DNA of 64,000 nt, from positions 124,001-188,000 of the IMG/VR virus record IMGVR_UViG_3300043449_002710; one strand, written 5' to 3'. The DNA comes from a virus. Shown here one piece after another: positions 6,661-47,000 of this stretch (the first letter of the stretch is position 1; every line of letters starts with the position of its first letter). Made by a program: the position numbers and the translations under genes. The notes beneath the pieces were generated by a model. That model saw nothing but the letters and a program-made list of their open reading frames with translations. It was not told where the DNA came from and made no database searches.

Positions 6661-7770
6661 TTATACACGAACTCCGTGTACGCACGCTCTGCCGTTGCCG
6701 ATGGCCAAGCCCATGATTTTCTGCATGTACCAGCCGCGCTCAGGCTTGCCGATCAAGTACATATTGATCGGAGCAGTGGTCACGTCTTTACGAACCGTTT
6801 GAGCGCCGAGAACGTTCGGAGCGGAGAGGAAGTAGAATTCCCCTGCGTTCAGAACCTTCAAGGTGTCATAACGGAAGCCGTCCGTGATGAGGTTGACGCC
6901 GTAGATCGAACCCAGGGAACCCGACATGATGATCTCACGCTTGGTGACCGGATCGAAGTAGGTGGCGAATTCTGGATCAGCCAGGATGTCGTTCCAGAGG
7001 TCCATAGCAATTAATCCAGTTGCGGCTGGGTTACCCCATTGCTGGATCTGTGTACGAGCCTGAGCGAAAACGCTCGGGGAGAAAGTGGTGAAGCCGACGA
7101 GGTCGTTGTACGAAGTAGCAGCGACATCGAGGAGCGACTTGAACACTTGGTCTTCTTTCACCATGAGCTGCTCCAGGCCGTCGATGTATTTGTCATCGAG
7201 GAGGTCGCCTGGGGCCTGTTCAAGTTCACGGTCTTCGATCAGAATGTGAGCCTTGACGTAGAACTCATCTGGGAAGAGGTAGGACTGATTGATCTGGGAT
7301 GTAGCCATTCCAGAATCAGTGACAGCGTAGAAAGCCATCACGTCCTTTTTACGGATGCGCAGACGACCGATTTCGCCTTTTTTGAGGTCCTTGCGCATGA
7401 CGCACTTGCGGAGGAAGCCATCGCGACCCATAGCCTCTAAAATTTCGTCCCCTAAGACTTCCCCGACAACGCGCCATGTTTCGCCGGTCTTGTCGGCCAT
7501 AGCAGCTTCAACGAGTTCTGCACGCTGATTGGCGAACTCGTGCTGTTCCTGGACTTCGCCCGAGGTAGCAGCCAAGGCGAGAGCGCCGATACGCTGCATG
7601 AGTTCCTTTTTGGAACCAGCGTTGATTTCGCCGTTCTTGTCTTCGAAAGAACCAGCGCCAGCTTCGACTTTACCGGACTTATTGATGTGCAGAGCAGTTT
7701 TGCTCTCGGACAGTTCGTTGCCCGAACGGGTCACAACGACCGTCTTTTTTGTGTAAGGATTGGTAGCCAT
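6661..7770 (-). CDS. Major capsid protein (HK97 fold)
   Basis: A 369-residue protein identified as the main head subunit. After a flexible charged N-terminus (residues 1-60) come the E-loop-like and P-domain segments DGFLRKCVMRKDLKKGEIGR, KKDVMAFYAVTDS, YVKAHILIEDRELEQAPGDL, IDGLEQLMVKEDQVFKSLLD, the A-domain YFDPVTKREIIMSGSLGS, YGVNLITDGFRYDTLKVL, and the terminal GKPERGWYMQKIMGLAIGNG. This order is typical of large myo- and siphovirus capsid proteins. A strong TAGGAG ribosome-binding site sits about nine bases before the ATG, it is the last gene of the head cluster, and a strong terminator follows: features expected of a highly expressed protein. No HK97-style fused protease is present. Confidence 0.9.
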   Translation of the reverse strand: MATNPYTKKTVVVTRSGNELSESKTALHINKSGKVEAGAGSFEDKNGEINAGSKKELMQRIGALALAATSGEVQEQHEFANQRAELVEAAMADKTGETWRVVGEVLGDEILEAMGRDGFLRKCVMRKDLKKGEIGRLRIRKKDVMAFYAVTDSGMATSQINQSYLFPDEFYVKAHILIEDRELEQAPGDLLDDKYIDGLEQLMVKEDQVFKSLLDVAATSYNDLVGFTTFSPSVFAQARTQIQQWGNPAATGLIAMDLWNDILADPEFATYFDPVTKREIIMSGSLGSIYGVNLITDGFRYDTLKVLNAGEFYFLSAPNVLGAQTVRKDVTTAPINMYLIGKPERGWYMQKIMGLAIGNGRACVHGVRV

Positions 7771-10631: not shown

Positions 10632-11126
10632 ATGGCAAAGGTCAAACGGAGCAAAAAAGGCAAAAAGATCTTAAAAACCAATATTCATGGGGACACCTGG
10701 ACGTATTCCGAAGTAACCCCACAAGAAATGGTCGGCATCTGTGGAGAAGAAGTTGAGGGGCTGACCAATTTGGATGAGCACCATATCTACATCAATGCGG
10801 ACTATCTTAATCAAGATGTCGTGATCCACGAATTGGTTCACGCTTACAAGAGCTATCTCTGTTTGGAGACAACCAACTTGACCGGAGAACAGCTCGAAGA
10901 GATCTATTGCGAGTTCTTCAGCAAGAACTGGCACAAGATTATCACTAAAAGTGCTCAGATCCTTTTGGATCTGCGCGACATCACTGAGTCCTCCGATGAG
11001 TTTTTAAATCTGGTGGAGTCTTTCATCCTCCTAAAAGCCTACGAGGGAAAGGGGAAAAAAACATTCACCCAAGAAGATCTTCAAGCAGCTAAACTTTTAC
11101 TGCGGGCTTTTTTAGAGACAACTTAA
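10632..11126 (+). CDS. Small zincin-type metallopeptidase
   Basis: A 164-residue protein with the zinc-binding HExxH motif in VVIHELVHAYKSYLCL (about residues 79-94) and a candidate third ligand glutamate in QLEEIYCEFFSKNW. A basic N-terminus (MAKVKRSKKGKKILK) may bind nucleic acid. Small zincins like this occur in phages as anti-repressor (ImmA-like) or virion peptidases; the substrate is not predictable. The ATG at 10632 has GGAG nine bases upstream; an upstream GTG in the same frame is less good. It is a lone plus-strand gene within the minus-strand head cluster and ends four bases inside its convergent neighbour. Confidence 0.78.
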   Translation: MAKVKRSKKGKKILKTNIHGDTWTYSEVTPQEMVGICGEEVEGLTNLDEHHIYINADYLNQDVVIHELVHAYKSYLCLETTNLTGEQLEEIYCEFFSKNWHKIITKSAQILLDLRDITESSDEFLNLVESFILLKAYEGKGKKTFTQEDLQAAKLLLRAFLETT

Positions 11127-11893
11127 CCCCGTAAAACGGACATCACCGTGGGGTAGGAAGTGATCGCTTTCTTTCTTCTTTTGTAAGGTTTCAAGGAGCG
11201 AATCGTTGAAATCAGCTCCGAAACATTAGGAACGCTGTCAGAAACATTGGGAATGCTAATTATGTTTAAAAGTTTTGGACCATTATGCTTCGGCCTGACC
11301 CAGAGATCCAATTTCTTTTGGTCATCATATTTGATGCCAACTTGATGACCGCAGTCTAAATCAATGAAAAAAGTGGGCGTGGACCATCCGTCTCTTGTGC
11401 CTGCTTCGTGAATTTTGACAATTTTAATACCAGCGTTTTCTAATTCTTGAACTAGCTTTTTCCCCTCGCGATTGATGCCCGCAAAATCATAGGGTGGCGC
11501 AGGTGGCGCAGGTGGCTTCTTGGGTTTACCGTTGAGTTCATCCCTTTGGTCTTGATCATAGAAGTAGCCTTGGGTTTCATCGTGTTTGCTGAATTCTAGA
11601 TCTTTGTATTTTTCGTTTTTATAATATTTCTTTTTCACCCATTTTTGAGACGAGTAAACAGACTTAAAACTTGAATCTAGATTCAATTTTTTAAAAACAT
11701 CTTCGGTGGCCTTCAATAAATTGACTTCGCCTTGGGGTGTCACTACCCTACCATAACCGTTATAGATGCCTTCAATCACTGTATCGTCTGGTAAAACGGA
11801 CACGATATGAGATTGCTCTTTGGGAAGTTTCGCCCACGGGTAAACCGGGATGCTTTCGCCAGATTTTGCGCAGAGATTAGAAAAAAAGCCCAC
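11123..11893 (-). CDS. Hypothetical protein with C-terminal YPT tag
   Basis: A 256-residue protein starting at GTG with GAGGG eight bases upstream. It has an N-terminal region with WAKLPKEQSHIVSVLPDD, a lysine/tyrosine-rich middle (KKKYYKNEKYKDLEF), a proline hinge PKKPPAPPAPP, then a globular C-terminal part (IKIVKIHEAGTRDGW, FFIDLDCGHQVGIKYDD). The last residues are KKAITSYPTVMSVLRG, a C-terminal copy of the YPT peptide otherwise found at N-termini. Function not recognised. It sits in the head cluster between the peptidase and the structural genes. Confidence 0.72.
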   Translation of the reverse strand: MGFFSNLCAKSGESIPVYPWAKLPKEQSHIVSVLPDDTVIEGIYNGYGRVVTPQGEVNLLKATEDVFKKLNLDSSFKSVYSSQKWVKKKYYKNEKYKDLEFSKHDETQGYFYDQDQRDELNGKPKKPPAPPAPPYDFAGINREGKKLVQELENAGIKIVKIHEAGTRDGWSTPTFFIDLDCGHQVGIKYDDQKKLDLWVRPKHNGPKLLNIISIPNVSDSVPNVSELISTIRSLKPYKRRKKAITSYPTVMSVLRG

Positions 11894-16770: not shown

Positions 16771-16842
16771 GGGCTGCTTCAGTGGGAAGCAGCCCCTCGG
16801 CATCGCCTACTATGAAGAGTGGACAATCTGACAATGCCGAGG
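16771..16842 (-). other. Structured leader upstream of the scaffold gene
   Basis: Two adjacent stem-loops in a 228-base gene-free stretch: GGGCTGCTTC/GAAGCAGCCC (ten pairs, loop of five, 16771-16795), and CCTCGGCAT/ATGCCGAGG (nine pairs, 30-base loop, 16795-16842). Neither is followed by a clear T-run on the minus strand, so they are more likely part of the scaffold mRNA leader or a small RNA than a terminator. Confidence 0.5.
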
Positions 16843-16931
16843 GGGGAACTTAACAAGTCTTTTTTTGAACTTGAATAGGGCACTCTTGCCGATCGTTCTT
16901 TTTTTGTGGTCGTTCGTTACAAAAAAACAGA

Positions 16932-17096
16932 CTATTTCACATCGTTATAGACGAAAACCAAAACAAAGAAAGCCACCAAGAGAGAAACCCCCAGAGAGAA
17001 GAAAATATAGGCAATCGCTCCGGCCATTAAACCGACAACGCCAGCAATCTTTAGGTTAAAAAGAAACACTTCCATCTTATTGTTTTCATTTTCCAT
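16932..17096 (-). CDS. Small membrane protein
   Basis: A 54-residue protein starting at the ATG at 17096 (a longer frame to 17261 would overlap the neighbour heavily). After MENENNKMEV it has two closely spaced hydrophobic segments, LKIAGVVGLMAGAIAYIFF and LGVSLLVAFFVLVFVY, so two transmembrane helices with a short turn, ending in charged NDVK. Its start overlaps the end of the previous gene. It closes the MoxR/VWA operon. A holin is conceivable from size and topology but the context does not support it specifically. Confidence 0.65.
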   Translation of the reverse strand: MENENNKMEVFLFNLKIAGVVGLMAGAIAYIFFSLGVSLLVAFFVLVFVYNDVK

Positions 17097-17868
17097 GGAT
17101 GATCCTCGTTTTAGTGACCAAAGGTTTGTCCTCTGGACCTTTGACGTGCTCGACGTGCCAAGTTCTGCCTTGTTCACAGTAATTGCCATCACGGTCTTTG
17201 CCGATCCGGCTGGTATCGAGAATCGTTTTTTCTTTATCGAGCCAAAAGTGGTGCCAAGCACCCCGGACCCACCACCTGTGACCCCACTCGATGATCTTTC
17301 CGGTTTCGCTGTTGTGTTCGGTCACCTGACTCTTTGGTCTGACATGGATCACTTTTCTAATCGTGATGAATCGTTTTGACTTGCCCGAGCCCACCTTGAT
17401 CTTTTCTCGGACATTCTCTGTCCCAAAGCGATCGGTGTTGGAGTTCATTCGATCCACAAGTGATTTCACCACGCCATCCAAATTGGTGATTAAGATGACC
17501 CCGTCTGATTCCTGAAGCCCTCGCTTTACTTTCGTCAGAGCAAAATAAAACCAACCTTGCTTGGGTTGTTCAAAAGCCAAGATGCAATCGATATCGACCG
17601 CAATCGGATCGTCAGGTCGGGAAACCGTCACGTATGTTTGACCGGGAAACTCAGCACTCCAGACCTTGAAAGGCGCGTCGTATTTCTCCTCGCTCATCAC
17701 TTCTGGCAATTCCTGCGGCCCGGTCTGCTTGGAAGGGGCGAACACGAAAGGCTGAGCGTGCTCAACCATGTGATAAAAGAACTCGGGGTCGTAGTTCTTG
17801 TTCTCTATCGGCGAATAGATGTACCCGGTTTTTTTGACGACCTCGATCATCTTTAAAAGCTTACGCAT
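17086..17868 (-). CDS. Hypothetical protein in MoxR/VWA operon
   Basis: A 260-residue protein starting at the ATG at 17868 (GGAG eight bases upstream; overlap of eight bases with the VWA gene stop). The N-terminal half holds PFKVWSAEFPGQTYVTVSRP and VDIDCILAFEQPKQGWFYFA. The C-terminal part HRWWVRGAWHHFWLDKEKT...WHVEHVKGPEDKPLVTKTR resembles a short C-terminal domain found in many uncharacterised phage and plasmid proteins (WxVRGHWRR...W.xPHxRG.xxAPLVxKxR type). Function unknown. Tight coupling to the VWA gene suggests it works with the MoxR/VWA pair. Confidence 0.68.
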   Translation of the reverse strand: MRKLLKMIEVVKKTGYIYSPIENKNYDPEFFYHMVEHAQPFVFAPSKQTGPQELPEVMSEEKYDAPFKVWSAEFPGQTYVTVSRPDDPIAVDIDCILAFEQPKQGWFYFALTKVKRGLQESDGVILITNLDGVVKSLVDRMNSNTDRFGTENVREKIKVGSGKSKRFITIRKVIHVRPKSQVTEHNSETGKIIEWGHRWWVRGAWHHFWLDKEKTILDTSRIGKDRDGNYCEQGRTWHVEHVKGPEDKPLVTKTRIIHGK

Positions 17869-19270
17869 TCTTTTTCTCCGCCTTCCCAGAAGCAGACTTT
17901 TTGACAATCTCTTTCAGAGTTTGGATTTCTCCAAGCGAGTTGACGACCGCGATGTCATCCGAAAAAGCTTCCAAGGTTTTGCCTTCGCTTCCTAAGCCGC
18001 CTGCTCGATCGTTGATCGCAACCCCAAAGACTCTGACATCGGTTTCTTCCTTGAGGTTCAGGATCTCCTTGAGCTTGTGATCTTCAAACCGATATTCGTC
18101 GTCGGTGATAAAGATGATGTCAGCAGGTTTGAGTTCAGCGTCTTTTTTGCGCATCTCGAAAGCCGCTTTCAAAGGCCTATAGAAATCCGTACCGCCATCT
18201 GGGCCGAGTTGTGCGATCTGAATCTTGTCTTCCAAAGAGATCGAAACCGAGCGTGGAAAAAACCTCTGGAATTTGACTTCGGTATTAAACGCGATGAAGC
18301 CGAAAGCCCGCTTTTGTTTTGCGGCCAAAGTCATGAGAGATAAGGTGACGGCCTTAGCCCATTCGTCACGGCTACCTGCCATCGAGCCCGAGTGATCCAT
18401 CACGATAATGATCGGGCCACGCCCTAGCTGCTCAACACCTTTGAGGTTATAGACCTGAAGATTGCCCTCGATCATGTCTTTGTAGAAGAGCTTTGGGGTC
18501 CGTTTGAGTTTCATGAGTTCAGTCGGGACCAATCGTTCCAGGTCTGATCCCGGGCCAATGTCCACAATCTCGTCACTCCCATGCTGGTAAACCATGGCGT
18601 TAGCCGCATTGACCACGTTTTTGAAGCGACCGGCTAGATCCGCGATCCGCTTGCACTTGCCGGATTTCAGGATTTGATCGGCAAGCTCCAGCCGCTTTTC
18701 AAACGGCACCTGCTTCAATTCCTCAGGGTTGACCCCCCAAGACCGCATCGCGGTGTCCCATTCGTCTTGTGCTTCTTGAGCCTGATCCACGCCTTTACGA
18801 AGCGCATTTCTGAGATTACTCATCTCTTCTTCACTGAGCACGTCTTCTAAAATGACCTCGCCATTTTCGCCCGAGCCTTCACCGGGTTCGGGGATCTCAC
18901 CTTCTTCTTCTGCCTCGTCGATCTTTTTCTGAATATCTTGAAGTTGCTCAAGAACTTTTGGGGCCAAAGCGAGCGTACCAAAGGCCGAAGAGATCTCATC
19001 GAGCTGAGCCATCTTATGCGCTTGAGCGTACTCGGGCAGACGATGGAGCTGCTCGACCAAACCTCGTTGTGCGAGCGGGGCTTCCTCTTTAAGCTGCGGA
19101 GAGACTTTGTAGAGGGATTGAAAAACATCTTGAACCATAGCCTCGGTCTCGGGCTGGCCGGGCTGGATCAGTTCCCCCACTTTGGAGTGCTTAATCTCAT
19201 TAAATCCCAAGCGATCAATCGCATCGGTTTTGACAGCATTCAGGTTCGGTTTGGTTTCTTTCTTGCTCAT
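17861..19270 (-). CDS. VWA-domain protein (ViaA/CoxE-like partner of MoxR ATPase)
   Basis: A 469-residue protein. The C-terminal von Willebrand A domain starts at GRGPIIIVMDHSGSMAGSR (about residue 285) with the MIDAS DxSGS motif. It continues with a threonine-containing loop (GPDGGTDFYRPLK) and the metal-site aspartate strand ADIIFITDDEYRF. The N-terminal 280 residues are helical with an acidic linker (EEEGEIPEPGEGSGENGE), as in ViaA and related cytosolic VWA partners of MoxR AAA ATPases. It has no signal peptide. MoxR/VWA pairs act as chaperones for metal-centre or complex assembly in bacteria. The promoter (TTGATA-16-TAATAT) puts the start codon six bases after the -10. Confidence 0.85.
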   Translation of the reverse strand: MSKKETKPNLNAVKTDAIDRLGFNEIKHSKVGELIQPGQPETEAMVQDVFQSLYKVSPQLKEEAPLAQRGLVEQLHRLPEYAQAHKMAQLDEISSAFGTLALAPKVLEQLQDIQKKIDEAEEEGEIPEPGEGSGENGEVILEDVLSEEEMSNLRNALRKGVDQAQEAQDEWDTAMRSWGVNPEELKQVPFEKRLELADQILKSGKCKRIADLAGRFKNVVNAANAMVYQHGSDEIVDIGPGSDLERLVPTELMKLKRTPKLFYKDMIEGNLQVYNLKGVEQLGRGPIIIVMDHSGSMAGSRDEWAKAVTLSLMTLAAKQKRAFGFIAFNTEVKFQRFFPRSVSISLEDKIQIAQLGPDGGTDFYRPLKAAFEMRKKDAELKPADIIFITDDEYRFEDHKLKEILNLKEETDVRVFGVAINDRAGGLGSEGKTLEAFSDDIAVVNSLGEIQTLKEIVKKSASGKAEKKNA

Positions 19271-19276
19271 AAGTCA

Positions 19277-19304
19277 ATATTATCAATATAAATATAAATA
19301 TCAA
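19277..19304 (-). promoter_or_regulatory. Leaderless sigma70-type promoter for the VWA gene
   Basis: Minus strand TTGATA (19299-19304), 16 bp, TAATAT (19277-19282), six bases, ATG. The segment ATTTATATTGATAATAT (19277-19293) is identical, over 17 bases, to the promoter of the plus-strand gene at 46227 and contains the inverted repeat ATATT-GAT-AATAT. Confidence 0.6.
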
Positions 19305-19335
19305 TGAAAAATAAATAAAAAATAATCTAATGGAA

Positions 19336-19536
19336 TCAATTGCTTGCGGGTCTTTTTTCCTTGAGCCAATTGTGAACCCAAGGCTCATCCCACTCCGAGT
19401 CTGCTTCTGGACCGTAAACAATGGTGTGGGTTGCTTCTTGATAAAGGTCATGCGAGTATCTCACGTTGTTCACTTCGCAAAACTCGTGAACTAATTCCTT
19501 GGTGAGCATCTCCAGTTTTTGTTTCATGTAACTCAT
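19336..19536 (-). CDS. Small hypothetical protein
   Basis: A 66-residue acidic protein (HDLYQEATHTIVYGPEADSE, WDEPWVHNWLKEK) with AAGGGTG as ribosome-binding site and an ATG three bases after the upstream stop. No domain recognised. It sits within the MoxR/VWA operon between the DUF3293-like gene and the VWA gene. Confidence 0.65.
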   Translation of the reverse strand: MSYMKQKLEMLTKELVHEFCEVNNVRYSHDLYQEATHTIVYGPEADSEWDEPWVHNWLKEKRPASN

Positions 19537-19539
19537 GAT

Positions 19540-20112
19540 TCACCCTTTGATGACTTTACTAATAGTCGGGTAATTTTTGAGGAGCGCTTGAATTTCAAGA
19601 TTAGTTCTTCGGACTAAAGCCGCCGCAAAAACAAACGTGCCTTTTCCATTCCTGAGTTCAGAATAGTTCTCAGCAATTTGGTTGGGGAGCAAGCTTTTAC
19701 CGATCGAGATCATCTCCCCAGATCGGCTCAAAAGAAAAACCTCGCCGTTAGATTTCTCAGGCTTAAATACAGCCATCTCTTGCTTGTACTCTGCGAGTAA
19801 AGCCATTACGTCTTTTTTGAGGTTTTCTGATTTGCCTTTGGGCGCTGAAACAAAAAGGCTATCCTCTTCGACTTTCTTCTCTTCTGGAGTACCTTTGTTC
19901 TCGATGAAATACCCATCCAGCCAATGATAGCCATAGCCTTTAGCCCTGACATCCGCCGCGAGCGCGAGGTTTCTTCGGATGTTTTCTTCGAGATCGTACT
20001 CCCCCCTGAAAGCGGTGAGAATGGCAAACGAACGATCTTCATTCTTCCACATTTCCCACACCCGAGAGAGTGTGGATGCGACCAGCCGGGTTTGTTTTAA
20101 GTTCAAAGACAT
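19540..20112 (-). CDS. DUF3293-like protein with C-terminal YPT tag
   Basis: A 190-residue protein. SFAILTAFRGEYDLEENIRR, then LAADVRAKGYGYHWLDGYF, VEEDSLFVSAP and a distal FLLSRSGEMISIGKSL follow the order of DUF3293, a small alpha/beta family found in bacteria and phages (ILTAxR...eN...L...G...GxxxE.SxfV...Q..v......G..xxLG). Function of the family is unknown. The C-terminus LLKNYPTISKVIKG is another copy of the YPT peptide. The gene lies inside the MoxR/VWA operon, preceded by AGAGGG. Confidence 0.72.
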   Translation of the reverse strand: MSLNLKQTRLVASTLSRVWEMWKNEDRSFAILTAFRGEYDLEENIRRNLALAADVRAKGYGYHWLDGYFIENKGTPEEKKVEEDSLFVSAPKGKSENLKKDVMALLAEYKQEMAVFKPEKSNGEVFLLSRSGEMISIGKSLLPNQIAENYSELRNGKGTFVFAAALVRRTNLEIQALLKNYPTISKVIKG

Positions 20113-20127
20113 ATAGCCCTCTTTCTT

Positions 20128-20994
20128 TTAAGATAAATGCTTTTTGATCGATCCGCTCAGGCTCTCAAGTTCCTCTTTCAAAGACTGAGCAGTCTGAACA
20201 AACAGGTCTTCATACATTTCGACTTTTCCCTTCAATTTCTTGAATCGGCGCAGATGGCTTTCCACACCGCGCTCGGTCGTGGGCGGGGTCTTGTCGAGTT
20301 CGGCTTTCTGAGCTTCCAAAGCGCCTTTGACTTCATTGACCAGAGAGTTCCACATGGATTTCTTGGCTTGAGCGGTATCAATGATCGGAAGCGTTCCCAA
20401 ATAGAAACCATCGAACTTGGCAAAGAGCGCCTGGAGTTTTTGGAACTGATCCATTTTGGAGCTTGGGATGAAATAGATCCCGCCGTTGTCGCGCACTGAG
20501 ATTCCTTCGCAATCGCCTTTGACGTAGTCCAAGACCACCTTACGGAAGTTGTCGGTATTATAAACGCCCTTCTCGCGCTCATAGCCTTCGATGATAGCGT
20601 CCTTGTTATAGCCGTCCACTTTGATCATGCCCGTCTTCTTGTCGAAAATGATCTGAGTGTCAGTCTTGAAGTCCACAGCGCGGTTAGCCACATCGACTGA
20701 CTGAGCTACGATCACAAATACCGTGTAGTCCTTGTCTTCCAAGATATTGCGGTGGAAAGAATTGGTGCGGTTGTCGGTTTCCTTCTGGATAGCTCTGAGG
20801 AGCGCCGACTTGTGACGAACCTTGTCGGCATAGTCTTCGTCGATGCCCACTTCTTTCAGGATCGCGATGAATGCTTCAAGAGGCATTTTCATCTCGTTGG
20901 CAGACCAGTACACGCAATTCCCGAGCAGCGGGTAGCCTTCAGCGGACTTGGCTAGGGTTTCACGATTGATGGTTTGGTTGGTTTTCTTGCTCAT
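20128..20994 (-). CDS. Hypothetical protein between MoxR and VWA genes
   Basis: A 288-residue protein (start at the second ATG, eight bases after AAAGGAG; a first ATG six bases earlier is too close to the ribosome-binding site). The N-terminal part has YPLLGNCVYWSANEMKMPLE, the middle an alpha/beta region (YTVFVIVAQSVDVANRAVDF, FRKVVLDYVKGDCEGISVRD, GGIYFIPSSKMDQFQKLQAL) and the C-terminal third a coiled coil (LRRFKKLKGKVEMYEDLF, SLKEELESLSGSIKKHL). I do not recognise a family with certainty. Its invariable-looking position between the ATPase and VWA genes suggests it is the substrate or adaptor of the pair. Confidence 0.7.
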   Translation of the reverse strand: MSKKTNQTINRETLAKSAEGYPLLGNCVYWSANEMKMPLEAFIAILKEVGIDEDYADKVRHKSALLRAIQKETDNRTNSFHRNILEDKDYTVFVIVAQSVDVANRAVDFKTDTQIIFDKKTGMIKVDGYNKDAIIEGYEREKGVYNTDNFRKVVLDYVKGDCEGISVRDNGGIYFIPSSKMDQFQKLQALFAKFDGFYLGTLPIIDTAQAKKSMWNSLVNEVKGALEAQKAELDKTPPTTERGVESHLRRFKKLKGKVEMYEDLFVQTAQSLKEELESLSGSIKKHLS

Positions 20995-21021
20995 GTTCAT
21001 TTCTCCTTTATTTTTTTTTGG

Positions 21022-22128
21022 TTAGATCAGGCCTAGTTCTTCAGCCATGAACTTCTTATTCAGAGCTTCCATTTGAGAGATCGCCTGATCGAGTTTCGAG
21101 TTACTGACGCCGGGCTGTCTGAAGGACCGAAGCTTCTCTAAGCCCTTTTTGATCTTCTTGTGGGCTTCGATGTCTTCGATCTCTTTAGAGCGATAGCTGT
21201 TGATCACGTCACGGATACCATCGGTGATATCCATGATTTCCTGCCCGAGCGGGTTGGCGTACTTGGCAACAACTTGGCGGACCTTTTTGATCTCGTCAGT
21301 TTCGCGCCATAAGACATTTTCTAAGATCTCCAAGTCATCGGGTTGAACTTCAGAGTGTCCGTTCAAGTAAGCTTGAGCCTGAAGGACGGCGATGATCTGA
21401 GCCCACTTACGATCGGAGACGACTTGGCCTTGGCCACGAACTTCATTCCAGAGTTTGATGATGAGATCGATCGTGTCATCAGAGATCCCAACCTGAGAGA
21501 CTGCGTCTTGCTCAGCTTTGAGTTCTGACAGGCTCAGAGTAGGGAGAGCAGCAGGCTTAGAGGCTTGGATCTTGGATTTGAGGAGAGCCTTACGCGAAGC
21601 ATCGTCTTGAAGTTCAGAGACAAGGTATCTGAGCACAAAGCGGTCGTACATGGGAGCAAGCTCTTCAGAGTCAGGCAATTCGTTAGAAGCGCCGAACATT
21701 ACTTGAAGCGGGATCTGCTCGGGCTCAGAACCGTTGAAGAAGGTGCGCTCGTTCATGATCGGAAGCAGCGTGTTGAGTATCGAGGAAGAACCCTTAAAAA
21801 TTTCGTCCACGAATGCGATATCGGCTTTAGGGAGCTTGCCGGTAGTGACCCGAACATGCTGATCGGATTCCATGGCCTTGAACGAAACAGGCCCGAATAA
21901 TTCTTCTGGGGTGGTGAATTTCGAAACCTGCCAAGCGAAGTAGTTTCCGCCCAAGGCTTTGCACAAAGCATTGCACAGGGCCGATTTGCCAACACCCGGA
22001 GGGCCTAACATGAAAAGCATTTGGCGTGAGAGCAGGGCAACGAGCATCCCGTTGATGACCGAAGCACGCTCATAGAAGCTTTGGTTCAAGTGAGCTTGGA
22101 TATTTTGGATCTTCAGTTTACCTGACAT
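21022..22128 (-). CDS. MoxR-family AAA+ ATPase (RavA-like)
   Basis: A 368-residue AAA+ ATPase. Walker A is LGPPGVGKSALCNAL (about residues 40-54), preceded by the MoxR-typical ERASVINGMLVALLSRQMLF; the TTPEELFGPVS loop, Walker B IAFVDEIFKGSSSILNTLL, sensor 1 VMFGASNELP and arginine finger YDRFVLRYLV follow. The C-terminal 100 residues are helical (KKIKKGLEKLRSFRQPGVSN) as in RavA-type proteins. MoxR ATPases remodel protein complexes together with VWA partners; one is encoded in the same operon. GGAAGG precedes the ATG. A promoter TTGACT-17-TACTTT lies about 25-55 bases upstream. Confidence 0.88.
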   Translation of the reverse strand: MSGKLKIQNIQAHLNQSFYERASVINGMLVALLSRQMLFMLGPPGVGKSALCNALCKALGGNYFAWQVSKFTTPEELFGPVSFKAMESDQHVRVTTGKLPKADIAFVDEIFKGSSSILNTLLPIMNERTFFNGSEPEQIPLQVMFGASNELPDSEELAPMYDRFVLRYLVSELQDDASRKALLKSKIQASKPAALPTLSLSELKAEQDAVSQVGISDDTIDLIIKLWNEVRGQGQVVSDRKWAQIIAVLQAQAYLNGHSEVQPDDLEILENVLWRETDEIKKVRQVVAKYANPLGQEIMDITDGIRDVINSYRSKEIEDIEAHKKIKKGLEKLRSFRQPGVSNSKLDQAISQMEALNKKFMAEELGLI

Positions 22129-22282: not shown

Positions 22283-22317
22283 CAAAAAAACCCGGTGAGA
22301 TTTCTCCCACCGGGTCT
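22283..22317 (-). terminator. Rho-independent terminator
   Basis: Minus strand ACCCGGTG with its partner CACCGGGT, extended by GAG/CTC, followed by TTTTTTTG. It ends transcription from the gene at 22358-22801 and separates it from the MoxR operon. Confidence 0.9.
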
Positions 22318-22357
22318 TAGTTTCCTTGTGTTGGAATAGGATATTTAGATAATACCC

Positions 22358-23662: not shown

Positions 23663-23719
23663 TTCTCAGTTCAATGCTTCGATGTCTTGGTTTCCGTAAA
23701 ATTGGTAAAATTTAAGAGA

Positions 23720-25018
23720 ATGAAAAAGAACCCGACAGTAGAATTCCCAATAGCGCGAGCGATCCGAGAGCAGATTTTTAAGATTCCGCTTCTGCCTCAA
23801 GACCAGATCGTCGCTAGGTTCCAAGAACTGGATAGCGTACTGTACCCCCACGCTCTGAAATTGACAGAAAAATTTCCGCGTCTTCGGGACTATTTTCAAG
23901 AAGTCATGTTCCGAATCGCCTCGGGCAATACCCTGGGTAAAAATTACTACGACAAAGAAGACCATGAAGATGAAAAAGGGAAAAAATCCTCCAAGAAAAT
24001 CTTCAAGAACTCCGAGAAAAGAGTCCTAGCAAAGAGCTTTGCTTTATTTCGGTTGAAAAATCAACCCCAACGCTTCTGCTCTGTAGTGAAAGAAGCGGGG
24101 TTTCTCAGAGGCGTCTTTGAAGAAGCTATCGAGTTATTTTTGGAAATCACTCAAGGCTATACTGAGACCTTGGATGCGATGAGAAAAGCCGCCTTGGCTC
24201 ATTCCCCCGATTTCATCGAACTCGAAAGAAAAGTGCATTTCATAGAAAATGAGTTAGGGTTCTACAATTCTGACGAACTGGTTTTTCAGGTGGTGGAAAC
24301 AAATTCCGTTTGGAAGCAATACTCCAAACTCAGGGATAATCTGATCGCCCCCTATTTCCGAATGGTTTACACGATTGCTAAGAGCACTTCGACCTCCGAA
24401 GCGCAGACCCTAGACAATTTCCAAAACGGAATCTTTGGCTTGGTTCGGGCTGTCAAATGCTATACCCCCACCCGATTTGCCGCTTTTTCAGTTGTCGCAA
24501 AGACCTGGATCAAGCAATCCATCTTGCTCAACTTGAAAACCGAGGTCAATCTCATCAAGCTGCCTGTCGCGAATTGGCACCTCTATCAGAAGCTAGAAAA
24601 AATCCGACAGAAAATAGAAACAAAGATGCAACGAGACGCCACACTAGAGCAGATCTCGAAGGCTTCGAAAATCCCGTTAGAAAAAGTTCAAAAGATTTAC
24701 GAGAACGCCAAGCTCGTTCACGTCTTATCTCTTAATACCCCTAGTCAAACGGAAGACGAAAAATCCAATCAAGCCAAATGGAATTTGGAATCGATCCAAG
24801 CCAATGACACTCATCGAGAGCGGTTTGAGATTCAAAACGAATACGAATTGATTGAGCATGTGATTCATCTCTTTGATGAAGAAGAGCAGATCATCTTTGG
24901 CTTAATCTCAGGATGTTCGGATCTCATCCCAGAACCCGAGTTACCCCAGGAACTCATCCTAAAAGAATCCTTAAGGCAAAAAGCGGCCCGCAGGGGGCTC
25001 AGCGTTATTTTTAAATGA
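23720..25018 (+). CDS. Phage-encoded sigma-70 family RNA polymerase sigma factor
   Basis: A 432-residue sigma factor. Region 2 spans about residues 225-305: LIAPYFRMVYTIAKS, TLDNFQNGIFGLVRAVKCY (the core-binding D-x-x-Q-x-G-x-x-G-L-x-x-A motif) and FSVVAKTWIKQSILLNL (promoter melting). Region 3 includes the TLEQISKASKIPLEKV helix-turn-helix, and a degenerate region 4 (HVIHLFDEEEQIIFGLISG, LRQKAARRGLSVI) ends the protein. The N-terminal 220 residues are helical with no region 1.1. It would redirect host RNA polymerase to phage promoters; the GTTATTWT motif is a candidate target. I chose the ATG at 23720 over a TTG at 23687. Confidence 0.85.
   Translation: MKKNPTVEFPIARAIREQIFKIPLLPQDQIVARFQELDSVLYPHALKLTEKFPRLRDYFQEVMFRIASGNTLGKNYYDKEDHEDEKGKKSSKKIFKNSEKRVLAKSFALFRLKNQPQRFCSVVKEAGFLRGVFEEAIELFLEITQGYTETLDAMRKAALAHSPDFIELERKVHFIENELGFYNSDELVFQVVETNSVWKQYSKLRDNLIAPYFRMVYTIAKSTSTSEAQTLDNFQNGIFGLVRAVKCYTPTRFAAFSVVAKTWIKQSILLNLKTEVNLIKLPVANWHLYQKLEKIRQKIETKMQRDATLEQISKASKIPLEKVQKIYENAKLVHVLSLNTPSQTEDEKSNQAKWNLESIQANDTHRERFEIQNEYELIEHVIHLFDEEEQIIFGLISGCSDLIPEPELPQELILKESLRQKAARRGLSVIFK
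25004..25012 (+). promoter_or_regulatory. GTTATTTTT promoter motif before the terminase operon
   Basis: GTTATTTTT lies at the 3' end of the sigma factor gene, 18 bases before the next ATG. It would launch the small-terminase-candidate/terminase transcript. Confidence 0.4.
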
Positions 25019-25709: not shown

Positions 25710-25934
25710 ATGTTTCCCACCAACTATGAAAATTTTTGGGACCTTTTAAAAGACGCGGATTTCGCACGTGGGTTTTTGACCCAATGCTACCATGAAGGGT
25801 TTTCTATCCACGGAATTAGGCATCCAGATGAAATTGAAGACATGCCTTGTACCTTGGTTGTGGAGCTTTCTAGGCAGATCTTGCCGTTTTACTACATGGA
25901 AAAAACCCCAAGCCCCAATTACTGGTTTCATTGA
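25710..25934 (+). CDS. Small protein upstream of terminase
   Basis: A 74-residue protein (NFWDLLKDADFARGFLTQCY, GIRHPDEIEDMPCTLVVEL) starting one base after the preceding stop and ending in TGATG, which overlaps the terminase start. The tight coupling suggests a packaging-related role. No family recognised. Confidence 0.7.
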   Translation: MFPTNYENFWDLLKDADFARGFLTQCYHEGFSIHGIRHPDEIEDMPCTLVVELSRQILPFYYMEKTPSPNYWFH

Positions 25935-28900
25935 TGCGAAAGTCTAAAAAGTTTTTGAACCCAGAAGACCTACTGAGTCAGATCATCAGCAGTGATTTTG
26001 ATCTGTCTCAGTTTGACCAAATCGATGAAAGCCATATCCCACAGCCACCCAATTTCATCGATTGGATCACAGGCAGGGATTTCTGTAACGCAACCCTCCT
26101 ACCTTGGCAGGTTGAAGCCGGGATGCACCTGTTCTCAGATTACTGCCCAGAGTGTTCGAACCCAGAATACATCACCGAGCTATTTGATGAATCGATGGCT
26201 GAGATCCTCGATAACATCCAGTTCTTAGATCAAGGAGTTTGCCCCAAGTGCAAAAAGAATCGATTAGATCTTTTCACCTTGGGTGAAAAGCATCCGACAA
26301 AGCCATCGATTAAATCCGAGTTTATTGGAAATTTGGGCCAGAGAAGCGGAAAGACACTGGCCGAACACACCGAAGTTTTAACCCCCCAGGGGCCTGTTGC
26401 CATCAAAGATATCCAAATTGGGGATATCGTTTATGGCTGGAATCGAGACGGTTCTGTTTCTGAAACAAAAGTAGTCAATAAATTTGATCACGGTATTAAG
26501 CCTGTTCGAGACCTGATTTCTAGGGGTAGGGTACTGGCTTCTTGCACCGACGAGCACCGTTGGCTTACGTGCAGAACCAGTCGTTATGGAAAAGGAACTA
26601 GAAAACAAAGAAAATCAGATTTTTTAGAGTTAAAACTCAAAGACTTCAAGGATAACAAAGATATCGCGATTCATCGTAAATTGATCAAGATTCCTTGTGG
26701 GGAAGTTTCGGAACCCCATGCTTATGCGATTGCGGCCCTTCTTGGAGATGGGTGCTCCCGTCAAGGCACCTCAAATACGATAGATATTTCTTCAGGGGAT
26801 CAAAATGTCCCTAAAAAAGTAGCGTCTGTACTCGGAGCACAAACAATTAAACGAAACTGGGAAGATAACTATACTTGGCATATTCGCGCAGGAGATACTT
26901 ATAGCAGGGAAACATTGAACTGCCACTATTACGCGGAATGGTGCAAGGGTAAATATGCCCACGAAAAGATATGCGATCTTGAGACAATAAAAACTTGGGA
27001 TCGTGAAAGTTGCCTAGAATTCCTCGCCGGACTGATCGACACGGATGGTTCCGTACATGGAACTGGGAGACTAATTGTTGCTTTTGGTTGCCAATCCAGG
27101 TCAGTCGTAGAAGCATTCGCCTATTTGGTTTACCGCCTTTTTCAATACAAGCCAGCAATCCACATGGATAACAGACCGAAATACTTCAATGGTCCAATAT
27201 ATCAGGCAAAGGTAAACTCTACTTTTTTTGCTAAAAGAATTTTGAAAGAGATTGATCCTTATTTGGCGAGCCCAAATAGAAAATGGAAACCCGAATACGA
27301 AATGATTGGGAATCATAACTCCCATTCAGATTATACGAAACCCCAAGCTGGTGAACCCTACCTCTGTCAGACTTATGATATTGAAGTAGGGAATGAAACC
27401 AATCTTTATGTTTTGGCCCACGAAGGTCTTATAACGCACAATTCAAAAATGGTCGCGTTGTCCACAAGCTATCAGCTCAATCGCTGGTTGAGTCTTCACG
27501 ACCCGCTAGGCTTTTATGGGCTACCTCGGATGGAAGTGATCTTGGGGACTTTTTCCGCGCTCTCCGCAGAGCAAGCTGAAGAAAACCTCTGGATGCCATT
27601 CAAGGGATTAATCGACGCATCGCCTTGGTTTAAAAAGTACAATGATTTCCTCAAGTCGGAGGAGAAGCGTCTCTCCATTCCGCTTTGTGACGTGAAAGAC
27701 ACCTATATGTTCTATCCGCACAAAAGACTTCTGATCTCTTTCACAGGATCGGATGACCGGAAAAAACGCGGTCGGACTCGATTGTTTGGTGCGATTGACG
27801 AAATCGCTTTCTTGAATTCGGAAGTCGGGACTTCCAAAAAGAAGGTGATGGATGCGGATAAAAACTACGCCGCTCTCAACAACTCTCTTTCCACCATCCG
27901 GCAAAAGGCATTGATGCGATTGGCAGAGGGGCATTTCAATACGATCATGCCCATCATGTATAACGCCTCCTCGCCTTATAACGTCCAAGACAAAATCATG
28001 CGGTTGACCAAATCAGCCCCAGACAATCCCTTTGCGGTAGTGATTCACCGAGCTACTTGGGAGTCGAATCCAGACTACTCAGAAAAAACCTGTCGCGCCA
28101 TCAACCCAGGCCTTTCTCAAGTCGAGTTCGAGCGCGACTTTGGTGCAATCCCCCCGTTTTCGGATTCCCCCTATATTGGGGATGCTCGGGTGATGGAAAA
28201 GCTCTGCGCCCACAAAGATCACTATCGACCTCTTTTGAATGTGACTCGCGAAGTCCATGTCGATATGCTTGGAGACAAATATCTCTTTTTAAGAGCCAAG
28301 GCGCATCAGCTCGATAAGAATACGCCAAGGCTTTTGGCACTCGACAACGGGTACAATCAGAATGCGTTTGGTGCGGCGATCTTTGGCTATGATTCGATTC
28401 AAAAAAAGCCTGTGCTTCAGTTTTTAGTGAGCCTCTACCCAGATCCTCAATCCAATCTCTCGATTCATTTCCCATCGATGTTCGAGAATTTTATTTTGCC
28501 GATTATCCAAGGCCTCAATATTAAGCACGTCTTTTATGACCGCTGGCAGTCCCTTGATCAGATCCAGCGGTTAAGAGATATGAAAATCAACGCCGAAGCG
28601 CATTCGCTTTCTTTTGAGAAAGACATGCTGCCTTTCAAGCAGCAGCTTTTGTCTGGGAACATGGTGCTACCACCACTAGAGATCGCATCCATGCAAGAAG
28701 TCAAAGATGCGGTCAACCCCACGCAGATGACAACAGATAAACCGGTGGCCAATTTGATCTGGCAAACGCTGACTGTGAGACAGGTCGGTAAAAAAGTCTT
28801 AAAGCCTTTGGACGGGGATGACGATCTATTCCGAGCTTTTGTACTCGGGGGATCTCGCTTTTTGTCAGACGAGATCCAAAGAATTTATGCAACTTATGCT

Positions 28901-29035
28901 GGAATCAAACAAGCGGCTCAAAACGCCCAAGGCTTTTTAGGAAGCTTTCATTCTCGAAGCGGGGGAGGCAGTAGTGCAACCCCCAATCGAGGCAATCAGA
29001 TTTCTATCGCCAAGTATCGTGGCTTTTCCAAATAA
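25934..29035 (+). CDS. terL: Terminase large subunit, interrupted by an intein
   Basis: A 1033-codon precursor; removing the 363-residue intein leaves a 670-residue terminase. The ATPase P-loop GQRSGK/S spans the intein site. Walker B is RTRLFGAIDEIAFL, followed by the coupling region. The RNase H-like nuclease has its aspartates in LLALDNGYNQNAF, KHVFYDRWQ and LDGDDDLFRAFVL. The N-terminal part includes DWITGRDFCNATLLPWQVEA and two CxxC pairs (CPECSNPEY, GVCPKCKKNR), so it probably binds zinc. The enzyme cuts and pumps DNA into the prohead via the portal. The ATG at 25934 overlaps the previous stop. The C-terminal tail is glycine/serine rich. Confidence 0.93.
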   Translation: MRKSKKFLNPEDLLSQIISSDFDLSQFDQIDESHIPQPPNFIDWITGRDFCNATLLPWQVEAGMHLFSDYCPECSNPEYITELFDESMAEILDNIQFLDQGVCPKCKKNRLDLFTLGEKHPTKPSIKSEFIGNLGQRSGKTLAEHTEVLTPQGPVAIKDIQIGDIVYGWNRDGSVSETKVVNKFDHGIKPVRDLISRGRVLASCTDEHRWLTCRTSRYGKGTRKQRKSDFLELKLKDFKDNKDIAIHRKLIKIPCGEVSEPHAYAIAALLGDGCSRQGTSNTIDISSGDQNVPKKVASVLGAQTIKRNWEDNYTWHIRAGDTYSRETLNCHYYAEWCKGKYAHEKICDLETIKTWDRESCLEFLAGLIDTDGSVHGTGRLIVAFGCQSRSVVEAFAYLVYRLFQYKPAIHMDNRPKYFNGPIYQAKVNSTFFAKRILKEIDPYLASPNRKWKPEYEMIGNHNSHSDYTKPQAGEPYLCQTYDIEVGNETNLYVLAHEGLITHNSKMVALSTSYQLNRWLSLHDPLGFYGLPRMEVILGTFSALSAEQAEENLWMPFKGLIDASPWFKKYNDFLKSEEKRLSIPLCDVKDTYMFYPHKRLLISFTGSDDRKKRGRTRLFGAIDEIAFLNSEVGTSKKKVMDADKNYAALNNSLSTIRQKALMRLAEGHFNTIMPIMYNASSPYNVQDKIMRLTKSAPDNPFAVVIHRATWESNPDYSEKTCRAINPGLSQVEFERDFGAIPPFSDSPYIGDARVMEKLCAHKDHYRPLLNVTREVHVDMLGDKYLFLRAKAHQLDKNTPRLLALDNGYNQNAFGAAIFGYDSIQKKPVLQFLVSLYPDPQSNLSIHFPSMFENFILPIIQGLNIKHVFYDRWQSLDQIQRLRDMKINAEAHSLSFEKDMLPFKQQLLSGNMVLPPLEIASMQEVKDAVNPTQMTTDKPVANLIWQTLTVRQVGKKVLKPLDGDDDLFRAFVLGGSRFLSDEIQRIYATYAGIKQAAQNAQGFLGSFHSRSGGGSSATPNRGNQISIAKYRGFSK
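26354..27442 (+). other. Intein with LAGLIDADG homing endonuclease in terL
   Basis: A 363-residue intein inserted within the P-loop between GK and S. Block A is LAEHTEVLTPQGPVAI, preceded by threonine rather than the usual cysteine or serine. Block B is SCTDEHRWLT. The endonuclease has two LAGLIDADG-type motifs, AIAALLGDGCS and FLAGLIDTDGSV. Blocks F and G are QTYDIEVGNETNLYVL and HEGLITHN, followed by the +1 serine of the extein. The ends give a continuous terminase when removed. Thr at position 1 is unusual and may slow splicing. Confidence 0.9.
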
Positions 29036-31287: not shown

Positions 31288-33543
31288 ATGTTTAAGTTTG
31301 GAAAATACGCGACTCCTAAGGGTCCTTATCAAAAATATCAAGACCCCTTGAGTTATGTCTCTAGCTCGGTAGCGAACAAAGGCTCTGTTGCAACCGCCAG
31401 CAAAAAGACACGCATTCAATCGAACTACACACCTACCCTTAGCGGAACTGATCCCAACAGTTCTTTCACCTCGGGTGGGGCGAATATTGGTGGGGGCAAC
31501 GGCGGATACAACTCGGATCGCTACAATCCGGTCTTTGATAATCTTGAGGAAGGAACAATCCTAGAGGATTGGATACCGAGAGACGCAGCCGGGCTAGATC
31601 TCTTATACCGCCGCATCTATTTGCGTGACCCAACGCTCGGCCCTGGGATTGATATCATCCGAAATTTGCCTTGGTCTGATTTCACTTTAGAAGGGATCGA
31701 GGACAACGAAATAAAAAAGATTTACGAAGAATGTATGTCTTCGCTCAATCCCATGCTTCTCATGCCTGATATCACGCATGAGTTTTTGGTTTTGGGTCGG
31801 TCCATCTCCTCTCTTATCTTTGACCATAAGCGTGGCATCTTTTCAGGCGTGGTTCCCCATGACCCAGACTTCGTGAGAATCACTCCGGTTCCAGTTTATG
31901 GATTTGACCCGATGTGCGATTTCACCTTGTCGCCTGGGTTTAAAAAGTTTCTTCAGAGCCAAGACCCTAGAGCCGTCGATGCTCGAAAGTCTTTGCCCCC
32001 CTCGTTCTTGGAAGCAGCCGCCAATCAACAAGGGTTCTTGCCGCTCGATCCGATCTCCACGATCTACCTTTCACGGAAAGCCGCGCCAAACGATTCGATT
32101 GGAACCAGCATCCTGACCCGCACTCTTTATTTTTGGGCGATTGAAAAAGCGCTGTTGAACGCCCAGCTTTCGTCCACTCGAAGACGAGCCCGCTCCTTCA
32201 TTCATTTGAAAGCCGGGATCGACAATATGTGGGAGCCTTCCCCAGAGGAGATCGACGCCCTTGCAGGCATTGTGATTCAAGCCAATGAAGATCCTGTGGG
32301 CGGAGTCATTGCCACCCGTACCGGAGTTGAGATCAGTGAGCCTGTGAGTGGTGGAGCGGATTTTTATAAATGGAGCGATGAGCTGGAACTTTTCGCAAAA
32401 TACAAAATGCAGTGTATCGGGATCTCCGATGCACTTTTAAGTGGAGACGCAACCTACGCAAATGCGGATCAAGCTCGATCTGTTTTTGTGGAAAATTTAG
32501 CTTCTCTCCGCTCTAGGATTGTGAACAAGTTTTTCATGCAAAAGCTTTTTCCTGTCGTGGCACGAGTCCATGGATTTGTAAAAAGAACGCCTGCTGAATT
32601 GAGTCATCGGATTCGAACTACTTCTGCCTTTGACGGCCCTCGGTTCCCAAGCTGGGCTCAAACGACGATGATCACATCTGAAAAACTCACTCAGCGCAAG
32701 GTCATGAGCTTACCGATCGAAAACTTAATGATCCCTACGATCAACTGGGCTAAGCAGCTTAAGCCCACCCAAGATGAAAAGGCTTTAGAAATTTTGGAGC
32801 GGCTCAAACAAAACGAGTACCCGGTGACTCTCAGCCAGTGGGCGAGCGCTGCGGGCTTAAACCCTAAAACAATCGAGCAAGAGCAAAAAGACAATCTCGA
32901 TCTTCAGAATCGAATTCAAAAGCTTCAAGAAGCCATGGCCCCGCAAGAGGCCGAGACTAGCGACTCGGGTGAAGATTTGGGAATGGATATTCCAGAAGCT
33001 TCCGACGAACAGCCTGCAGGCGAAGAGGCTCCCGCTGAAGAACCTGTCCAGCAATCGGTTTACGCTAAGGCTAAAAGAATTGCCAAAGGCGGACCTGTTG
33101 CAAGAATTGATCAAATCGCGATTTGGAACCATGGTAAATGCGGTGGATTGAGTAAAAAAGACGCTCAAAAAGTGACCAGTTCTTTATTGAAGGATTCCAA
33201 TCCTGGGATCTTTAAAGACCCAAGGGCCTTGTTGAATAAGCTTCAAGACAAAGTGGGTTCTGAGCGGGCTCCGATCCTAGCTTATGTACTGAATCGGTTG
33301 GGGTTGACTTCTTTCATGATTGATTCGAAATCGGCTCAAGTCATTGCCAAGTCGGCAAGAGATAATCTGAACCGGTATTCGTCTTTTTCTAGTGAGAAAG
33401 CTATGCTCGATGTCAGGCGTTACGAGACAGAGATTCAGGCTCTTTCTCGATACGCAGAAAAAATGCGTTTGAATCAGAGTCAGTTCAAGGCAAAATTGGC
33501 ACCGCCCCCGAGCATTGATTCTAAAGTTATGGGTGGCTATTAA
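31288..33543 (+). CDS. Portal protein
   Basis: A 751-residue protein that should form the dodecameric portal through which DNA is packaged. The core starts at LDLLYRRIYLRDPTLGPGID and LPWSDFTLEGIED, then HEFLVLGRSISSLIFDHKRG, VVPHDPDFVRITPVPVYG, a stem-like segment and DALLSGDATYANADQARSVF, an arrangement seen in large-phage portals. The N-terminal 80 residues are low complexity. The C-terminal 200 residues carry an acidic, alanine-rich stretch (EEAPAEEPVQQS) and a basic helical tail. It lies downstream of terL with GAGGAA before the ATG; four bases overlap the convergent CheY-like gene. Confidence 0.88.
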   Translation: MFKFGKYATPKGPYQKYQDPLSYVSSSVANKGSVATASKKTRIQSNYTPTLSGTDPNSSFTSGGANIGGGNGGYNSDRYNPVFDNLEEGTILEDWIPRDAAGLDLLYRRIYLRDPTLGPGIDIIRNLPWSDFTLEGIEDNEIKKIYEECMSSLNPMLLMPDITHEFLVLGRSISSLIFDHKRGIFSGVVPHDPDFVRITPVPVYGFDPMCDFTLSPGFKKFLQSQDPRAVDARKSLPPSFLEAAANQQGFLPLDPISTIYLSRKAAPNDSIGTSILTRTLYFWAIEKALLNAQLSSTRRRARSFIHLKAGIDNMWEPSPEEIDALAGIVIQANEDPVGGVIATRTGVEISEPVSGGADFYKWSDELELFAKYKMQCIGISDALLSGDATYANADQARSVFVENLASLRSRIVNKFFMQKLFPVVARVHGFVKRTPAELSHRIRTTSAFDGPRFPSWAQTTMITSEKLTQRKVMSLPIENLMIPTINWAKQLKPTQDEKALEILERLKQNEYPVTLSQWASAAGLNPKTIEQEQKDNLDLQNRIQKLQEAMAPQEAETSDSGEDLGMDIPEASDEQPAGEEAPAEEPVQQSVYAKAKRIAKGGPVARIDQIAIWNHGKCGGLSKKDAQKVTSSLLKDSNPGIFKDPRALLNKLQDKVGSERAPILAYVLNRLGLTSFMIDSKSAQVIAKSARDNLNRYSSFSSEKAMLDVRRYETEIQALSRYAEKMRLNQSQFKAKLAPPPSIDSKVMGGY

Positions 33544-46191: not shown

Positions 46192-46220
46192 TTGACTGTC
46201 TTTATAAATATATTTATATT
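46192..46220 (+). promoter_or_regulatory. Strong leaderless sigma70-type promoter
   Basis: TTGACT (46192-46197), 17-bp spacer, TATATT (46215-46220), then six bases to the ATG at 46227. The block ATTTATATTGATAATAT (46212-46228) is shared exactly with the VWA gene promoter at 19277-19293. Confidence 0.68.
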
Positions 46221-46226
46221 GATAAT

Positions 46227-47000
46227 ATGACAATGCGTAAGATTCAAATTTTTGAGCAAGACCAAAAGTACCGCAAAGACTTGAGCGATTTTTTGATTAT
46301 GGTCCATGGGGCCAAGAGCACCGAGGATGCTTCCGTTTTGGAAGTTCCAGAGGAATTGGACGTGGATGCTTTTCACGGCATCAAGTTGGTGGACACCAAT
46401 GCGCCCAAGCTGCCGCTCATCCAACCTGCGGTTCCGTTCAAGGATCGGCATCCTGAGGTGGTCGAATGGCTCAATAACTACAAAGGCAATTTTGAATTTT
46501 ACTTGAGCTTAAAGTCTCAGCTTGAAGCCAAAGGCAGTTTGTCTGAAAAGCAGGTCGATGCGGTCAAACGTGCTATCGATAAGGACGTGCAGCGAGCGAG
46601 CAAACGGACTTTATCCACAAGTTCTCAAACCGTTCGCTTGTCTTTGTCTGCAGGCGAGATTTTGTTGATCTCCAAATTCTTCGCCCGAAAGCTTGCTGAG
46701 CAAGCAGGTGCAATCCGCCCACACTATGTCTTTGAGGTTTTATCCGTCGAAGCAGAGACTGAGAAAGCTTACAAAGTGAAGCTCCGCATGACTGCTCAAC
46801 GGACCAGCCATTGCGGAGTTTGCGGTTTGACTCTGACGAATCCCGAGTCGGTGGCGGCAGGTATTGGACCGATTTGCGCTGAAAATACCGGAATCTCTTT
46901 CGGGGCTAATTCGTCCTTGGAACTAGCCGAAGCTTTAAAAGAAACCCGCGAGATCGATACTTGGCTACCTAAGAGCGTGATCAAATCGAGGCTGTCTTAA
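46227..47000 (+). CDS. DUF6011-type zinc-ribbon protein
   Basis: A 257-residue protein. The C-terminal part includes [20 protein letters not shown] followed by GPICAENTG, the CxxCxxxLxxxxSxxxGxGxxC signature of the DUF6011 zinc domain often seen in phage proteins. N-terminal regions carry [36 protein letters not shown], a pattern also found in single-strand DNA-associated phage proteins. Function unknown. The start is six bases after a good -10; a second ATG lies six bases further in. It converges with the collagen-like gene. Confidence 0.78.

Follow-up and report, generated by a model that had tools for sequence, protein, structure and literature searches.

A DUF6744 protein that stays with MoxR-VWA pairs of differing lineage suggests a three-part viral remodelling machine

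The window analysed here is a 64,000-nucleotide stretch, bases 124001-188000 of the 223,260-base virus record IMGVR_UViG_3300043449_002710, and it carries on its minus strand an operon that includes genes for a MoxR AAA+ ATPase, a protein of Pfam family DUF6744, and a von Willebrand factor A (VWA) protein. Coordinates labelled G000 refer to the whole 223-kb genome. The persistence of DUF6744 across exchanges of the MoxR-VWA pair suggests a previously undescribed three-part viral machine, and we lean, with moderate confidence, toward reading the triad as a viral ternary AAA+ remodelling machine in which DUF6744 would be the third subunit or the client and the replication or recombination apparatus the likely target. 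What speaks for this in the sequences is the intact set of ATPase and metal-ion-dependent adhesion site (MIDAS) residues, the linkage of the three genes, their correlated divergence, and the persistence of DUF6744. The three genes are as follows.

21022-22128, minus strand: MoxR AAA+ ATPase of 368 residues, with a RavA-like core and AAA_lid_8 (PF20030, 6e-52; PF07728; PF17868)
20128-20994, minus strand: DUF6744 protein of 288 residues, counted from its ATG (PF20529, 1.9e-21)
17861-19270, minus strand: ViaA-like VWA adaptor of 469 residues (PF13519, 4.9e-8; phrog_24053, 1.9e-55)

The ATPase has the AAA+ core, the Walker A (GPPGVGKS at residue 42) and Walker B (DE at 108-109) motifs, and the lid that together define the MoxR class; bpMoxR (PF20030), AAA_5, and AAA_lid_8 all score above their Pfam cut-offs, and the catalytic residues are invariant in 28 relatives. 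The best PDB match of its family profile is RavA (1.6e-98, over RavA residues 8-333 of 498), and the NCBIfam RavA model matches at 7.1e-62, but with 210 bits against an equivalog cut-off of 681; together with the missing LARA domain and C-terminal regions, this indicates that the protein is probably not a RavA orthologue. In the VWA protein, VWA_2 lies above the Pfam cut-off, and the MIDAS residues D292, S296, T361, and D390 are invariant across the same 28 relatives, with S294 nearly so. An AlphaFold2 model (pLDDT 86) predicts a helical N-terminal half and a C-terminal VWA domain, and its fold matches include the MIDAS domain of MDN1 and the NorQD complex. The helical half, the VWA domain, and a D-x-S-x-S/T/D MIDAS fit a ViaA-like adaptor, while the NCBIfam ViaA score (67 bits, 1.7e-18, against a cut-off of 500) makes ViaA orthology improbable. 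The first-pass annotation of this DNA, which had called a RavA-ViaA-type pair with an intact MIDAS, is thus borne out on both counts, and the pair also proves to be a conserved phage module.

The third protein had been annotated as a 288-residue coiled-coil protein. The gene is real and the length correct, and the product can now be identified as a member of DUF6744 (76.8 bits against a gathering cut-off of 27); no Pfam family besides PF20529 was detected in it. The motif R-x-x-G-G-x-Y-F-V/I-P is conserved at residues 168-177. An AlphaFold2 model (mean pLDDT 91) predicts an alpha/beta domain followed by three long helices. No PDB chain matched this model at E below 0.001, and TM-scores were low; the good fold matches were to uncharacterised proteins of viruses, including one of the haloarchaeal tailed virus HVTV-1. 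The literature searched contained no mention of DUF6744.

Viral relatives of the MoxR protein were gathered with a profile built from a four-sequence alignment, as single-query searches with short exact peptides found none. The profile recovered 29 viral loci, and MoxR matched in 39 of 50,697 phage records. Two fecal "phage" loci (L004 and L006) and L031, which look like bacterial RavA-ViaA fragments, were left out of the relatives, Salmonella matches (H3 and H5) are host RavA-ViaA, and false conserved families arising from antisense open reading frames in GC-rich loci were disregarded. In nearly all of the phage loci found through MoxR (L008-L035 and L002), MoxR has a VWA gene next to it, with DUF6744 no more than a few kilobases away. 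DUF6744 is present in 25 loci of the RavA-type set, where any other coding-strand neighbour family occurs in at most seven. Moorella phage MTATph1 has the triad as well, and so does a Paenibacillus chromosome, where it stands next to phage-type genes (SbcC-like, RecT-like, and methyltransferase). In Aphanizomenon phage CL131, the gene immediately upstream of MoxR proved not to be DUF6744. The first-pass annotation had suggested looking for the same five-gene order in other phages, and what recurs is MoxR, DUF6744, and VWA together, while the rest of the order is not kept. It had also named an outcome that would speak against a working unit, namely related phages with only the ATPase and VWA genes in unrelated contexts; this is borne out in part, as the contexts do differ, but the third gene is retained.

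Because a set collected through MoxR cannot test the dependence of DUF6744 on MoxR-VWA, a second search was seeded from DUF6744, with a profile from six sequences; several of the contigs it returned overlap the MoxR-seeded set. A MoxR-VWA pair lies within 10 kb of DUF6744 in 37 of 43 loci. The pair is RavA/ViaA-like in 16 of these, consists of MoxR2 and a DUF2201 metallopeptidase-VWA protein in 20, and is CobS/CobT-like in one, where a CbbQ/CobS-like AAA+ protein accompanies a CobT-like VWA protein. Three further loci have at least the DUF2201 VWA partner, either in the locus (L051) or elsewhere in the contig (L046 and L067), and the three without any partner (L055, L058, and L065) are contig fragments of 16-71 kb.

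The distribution of pair types on the DUF6744 tree bears on how these associations arose. In a tree of 62 DUF6744 proteins, which is limited by long branches, the members partnered with DUF2201 form one branch (support 100), and the CobS/CobT-partnered member, L042, groups with the window and with L037 and L014, whose partners are RavA/ViaA-like (support 95). With L042 nested in the clade of the window's DUF6744, replacement of the MoxR-VWA pair around a retained DUF6744 is the most parsimonious explanation. A similar combination exists in HVTV-1: hhalign aligns gp25 with the DUF6744 profile (probability 98.1, the alignment including a GG-x-x-YF-I-P-like motif), and the genome also encodes a CobS/CobT-like pair, the AAA ATPase gp59 and the VWA protein gp57; genes 100, 101, 103, and 104 of this virus were considered as a halovirus triad and rejected, the DUF6744 homologue being gene 25. 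CobS/CobT have been reported in the virus family of HVTV-1 (PMC8651126). Tentatively, and with clearly less confidence than for the triad itself, bacterial and archaeal tailed viruses may share a machine defined by DUF6744, whose motor would have been exchanged at least twice among RavA/ViaA, metallopeptidase-VWA, and CobS/CobT types and which would act on the viral replication or recombination apparatus; as part of the same joint reading, at least some viral CobST pairs annotated as "cobaltochelatase" would be such motors rather than B12 enzymes.

In MoxR-VWA systems such as CbbQ/CbbO, NorQ/NorD, Midasin, and RavA/ViaA, the MIDAS of the VWA protein grips a client that the AAA+ ring remodels; to our knowledge, few clients have been established for such pairs. 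By the same logic, the viral MoxR would assemble as an ATP-driven ring on which the VWA protein would dock, gripping the target through its metal-bearing MIDAS. DUF6744 would be a dedicated third component, either a subunit for target recognition or regulation or the very protein being remodelled, and ATP hydrolysis would drive remodelling of a phage complex, most likely one of replication or recombination. We infer this target because genes of these processes make up most of the neighbours in the relatives: helicases, PD-(D/E)XK exonucleases, Sak4, RecT, RecE, DnaB, primase, and ligase recur there. In phages with CobS/CobT pairs, ligase and DNA polymerase III alpha genes adjoin the pair. Within the window, a Toprim protein is encoded about 12 kb from the module. 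Pairs of the MoxR-VWA kind are widespread, and those of viruses have been explained ad hoc, by virion assembly, cobalamin, or host takeover; a third protein kept through a motor swap points to a common task of the viral machines, and DUF6744 offers a small and testable handle for finding their client.

Several observations weigh against this reading or qualify the evidence for it. DUF6744 was undetected in four RavA-type phage loci (L020, L026, L030, and L036), and also in several phages whose pair is of the DUF2201 or CobS/CobT type, so MoxR-VWA pairs can apparently work without it. The three proteins of the RavA/ViaA-type loci diverge in parallel, their distance matrices being correlated at r = 0.71-0.82 (none of 2000 permutations as high); this is expected of partners but also of shared descent or co-inheritance. 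Near-duplicate loci (such as L043/L044 and L008/L045) inflate the counts somewhat, and the control for linkage, in which RavA-like MoxR and DUF2201_N occurred in 0 of 48 random viral contigs and the CobS/CobT type was not searched, used contigs drawn by an arbitrary 15-mer that were on average shorter than those with DUF6744. No strictly invariant acidic residue of DUF6744 stands out as an obvious MIDAS ligand, the best aspartate or glutamate columns reaching about 70%. Finally, the module of this phage sits among head genes, outside any replication cassette.

This last point is the chief attraction of a different account, in which MoxR and VWA, with or without DUF6744, serve as a virion assembly chaperone that folds, remodels, or matures head or tail proteins late in infection. 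The window module lies between the major head protein gene (6661-7770) and the genes for terminase (25931-29035) and portal (31288-33543), the module of L014 is near structural-looking genes, and Iyer et al. 2021 (PMC7824862) propose virion assembly for a related jumbo-phage MoxR-vWA pair, citing the tail system of the Acidianus two-tailed virus. Among the relatives, however, the recurrent neighbours are those of replication and recombination, the 25 commonest families include no capsid, portal, or tail family, and L042, from the window's own DUF6744 clade, stands beside helicase, DnaB, primase, and ligase-like genes. We therefore consider a role in virion assembly unlikely, though it is the foremost alternative.

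Less probable still is a purely genomic association, in which DUF6744 would act in replication or recombination independently of MoxR-VWA and have only its cassette in common with the pair. The neighbourhoods are rich in replication genes, the DUF2201 set likewise having helicase, ParB-like, and DnaB genes in 12-16 loci; DUF6744 is sometimes on the strand opposite the pair, and in HVTV-1 the homologue lies about 15 kb from it. A shared cassette accounts poorly, however, for the gap in frequency between DUF6744 and every other neighbour family of the RavA-type set, and DUF6744 keeps a MoxR-VWA partner over three pair lineages that lie in different cassettes.

The first-pass annotation treated all seven genes of the operon as a working unit that might remodel host complexes at the membrane or act in defence against rival phages, with a tagged and a membrane protein among its parts. 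The four remaining genes are as follows.

19540-20112, minus strand: SAM-lyase-like protein of 190 residues with a YPT-tagged C-terminus (PF23780, 3.5e-9)
19336-19536, minus strand: protein of 66 residues, no family assigned by Pfam or PHROG-type searches
17086-17868, minus strand: protein of 260 residues, no Pfam family over cut-off and a weak match to phrog_15934; its start overlaps the VWA stop
16932-17096, minus strand: hydrophobic protein of 54 residues (maximum 17-residue hydropathy 2.79), probably a membrane hairpin

Although DUF6744 stays with the pair, none of these four has a homologue in any triad-bearing locus, and the conserved unit therefore comprises three genes rather than seven; by this comparison of loci, the other four appear to be local passengers. 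The 54-residue product is hydrophobic enough to form the predicted two-helix membrane hairpin, as annotated. For the 190-residue protein, SAM-lyase-like is a better name than the earlier "DUF3293-like": it reaches 37.1 bits with PF23780, above the gathering cut-off of 28, and one of its weak phage homologues is annotated as a SAM hydrolase, while a sequence search for solved structures returned no relative. A membrane or defence function would draw on the action of the E. coli RavA-ViaA pair both at the inner membrane and on respiratory complexes (PMC9489729, PMC3893208), and on the last gene of the operon, which probably encodes a membrane peptide. We regard it as very unlikely, since the membrane gene is a local passenger, the neighbours of the relatives belong to replication and recombination rather than to membranes or defence, a PADLOC search returned nothing beyond weak P-loop matches of the ATPase, and the third component differs from those of cellular MoxR-vWA conflict systems.

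MoxR-VWA pairs often mature metalloenzymes. The least probable account extends this logic, as in CobS/CobT, NorQ/NorD, and CoxD/CoxE, to insertion of a metal cofactor or activation of, for example, a viral ribonucleotide reductase or the cobalamin pathway, and although a reductase gene adjoins DUF6744 in MTATph1 and lies near gp25 in HVTV-1 and a role for viral CobST in raising cobalamin has been proposed (PMC8651126), it can hardly be sustained when the reductase occurs once among 110 neighbours in the relatives, the only chelatase family match of the VWA protein scores 25.7 bits against a cut-off of 779, and DUF6744 resembles no metal enzyme.

The ternary remodelling machine that we favour has counterparts among described systems, and by its third component it differs from every one compared here. 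E. coli RavA-ViaA (NF010054 and NF008230) shares the adjacent genes, the MoxR core and lid, and the helical half with a MIDAS-bearing VWA domain; it is cellular, whereas the window system is viral, falls below both equivalog cut-offs, lacks the LARA domain and the C-terminal extension of RavA, and has DUF6744 as a third gene. The group 2.2 pair of jumbo phages, MoxR with a metallopeptidase-vWA protein (DUF2201), follows the same chaperone and co-chaperone logic, and a pair of this kind partners DUF6744 in 20 relatives, but the VWA protein of the window has no metallopeptidase domain, and where the describing paper (Iyer et al. 2021, PMC7824862) treats this pair it names no third component. The MoxR-vWA ternary conflict systems (eLife 2020, PMC7159879) also combine MoxR, vWA, and a third conserved protein and have PF20030 in common with the window. 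They belong to multicellular bacteria, and their third protein is a VMAP, iSTAND, FtsH, or beta-propeller protein, whereas the triad occurs in viruses and DUF6744 has no effector domains, so that the triad does not appear to belong among them. The viral CobS/CobT cluster of archaeal and bacterial tailed viruses (PMC8651126) likewise joins a MoxR-class AAA+ protein to a VWA protein, with DUF6744 in L042 and HVTV-1, but the window proteins are of another lineage, and nothing in the window favours a cobaltochelatase annotation.

As the first-pass annotation held, the seven genes are tightly packed in the order given, all on the minus strand. Intergenic gaps from MoxR onward are 27, 15, 3, and 65 nt, followed by overlaps. 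Two elements bear on their transcription.

22287-22318, minus strand: intrinsic-terminator-like hairpin (14-bp stem with 7 GC pairs, then a T-run) that closes the upstream unit
19277-19295, minus strand: putative phage promoter element ATATTTATATTGATAATAT, a 19-mer ending 6 nt 5' of the VWA ATG

Since the strong hairpin lies just upstream of MoxR, this gene appears to open the transcription unit. The annotation had further placed an internal leaderless promoter before the VWA gene, and here the evidence divides. Simulated sequence contains no near-match to the 19-mer, but the 223-kb genome has 11, of which three are exact, and as a recurring element it fits a candidate phage-specific promoter; a sigma-70 scan, by contrast, did no better than shuffles (5 found, 6.7 expected). 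Copies of the AT-rich element ATATTTATATT[GT]ATAATA occur at 19277-19295 (minus strand) and 46210-46228 (plus strand) of the window, at G000:62070, and elsewhere, and at several sites they lie directly 5' of a start codon. A sigma-factor-like gene (23687-25018, plus strand; phrog_351, 7.6e-21) stands upstream of the operon in divergent orientation, and its product is a possible user of this element. Two strong adjacent hairpins occupy the gap downstream of the operon (16775-16844, minus strand). The folding of this region surpasses that of every one of 200 shuffles, at z -3.6, and no match to Rfam exceeded the gathering threshold there.

The YPT tag described earlier is also real. The 190-residue protein ends in NYPTISKVIKG, and nearly identical last 11 residues occur on two further proteins of this phage, which end in TSYPTVMSVLRG and EEYPTVSKVLRT. 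The consensus, YPT-[VI]-[SM]-[KS]-V-[LI]-[RK]-[GT], stands at the extreme C-terminus of all three (window 19540-20112, window 11123-11893, and G000:59500-59835), with a looser fourth case at G000:100802-101200. The tag, a possible shared targeting or degradation signal, was found on no open reading frame of the triad-bearing loci.

Besides the head, terminase-like, portal, and sigma-factor-like genes, the window encodes a tRNA. The terminase-like gene (25931-29035, plus strand) is broken by a LAGLIDADG intein-like insert. At 4809-6566 (minus strand), a single frame combines a Mom-like DNA modification domain (residues 1-164) with a homing-endonuclease-like region (191-439). Elsewhere in the genome, the phage encodes a GTPase of the tubulin/FtsZ family (G000:213039-214172, plus strand; PF00091, 8.2e-10).

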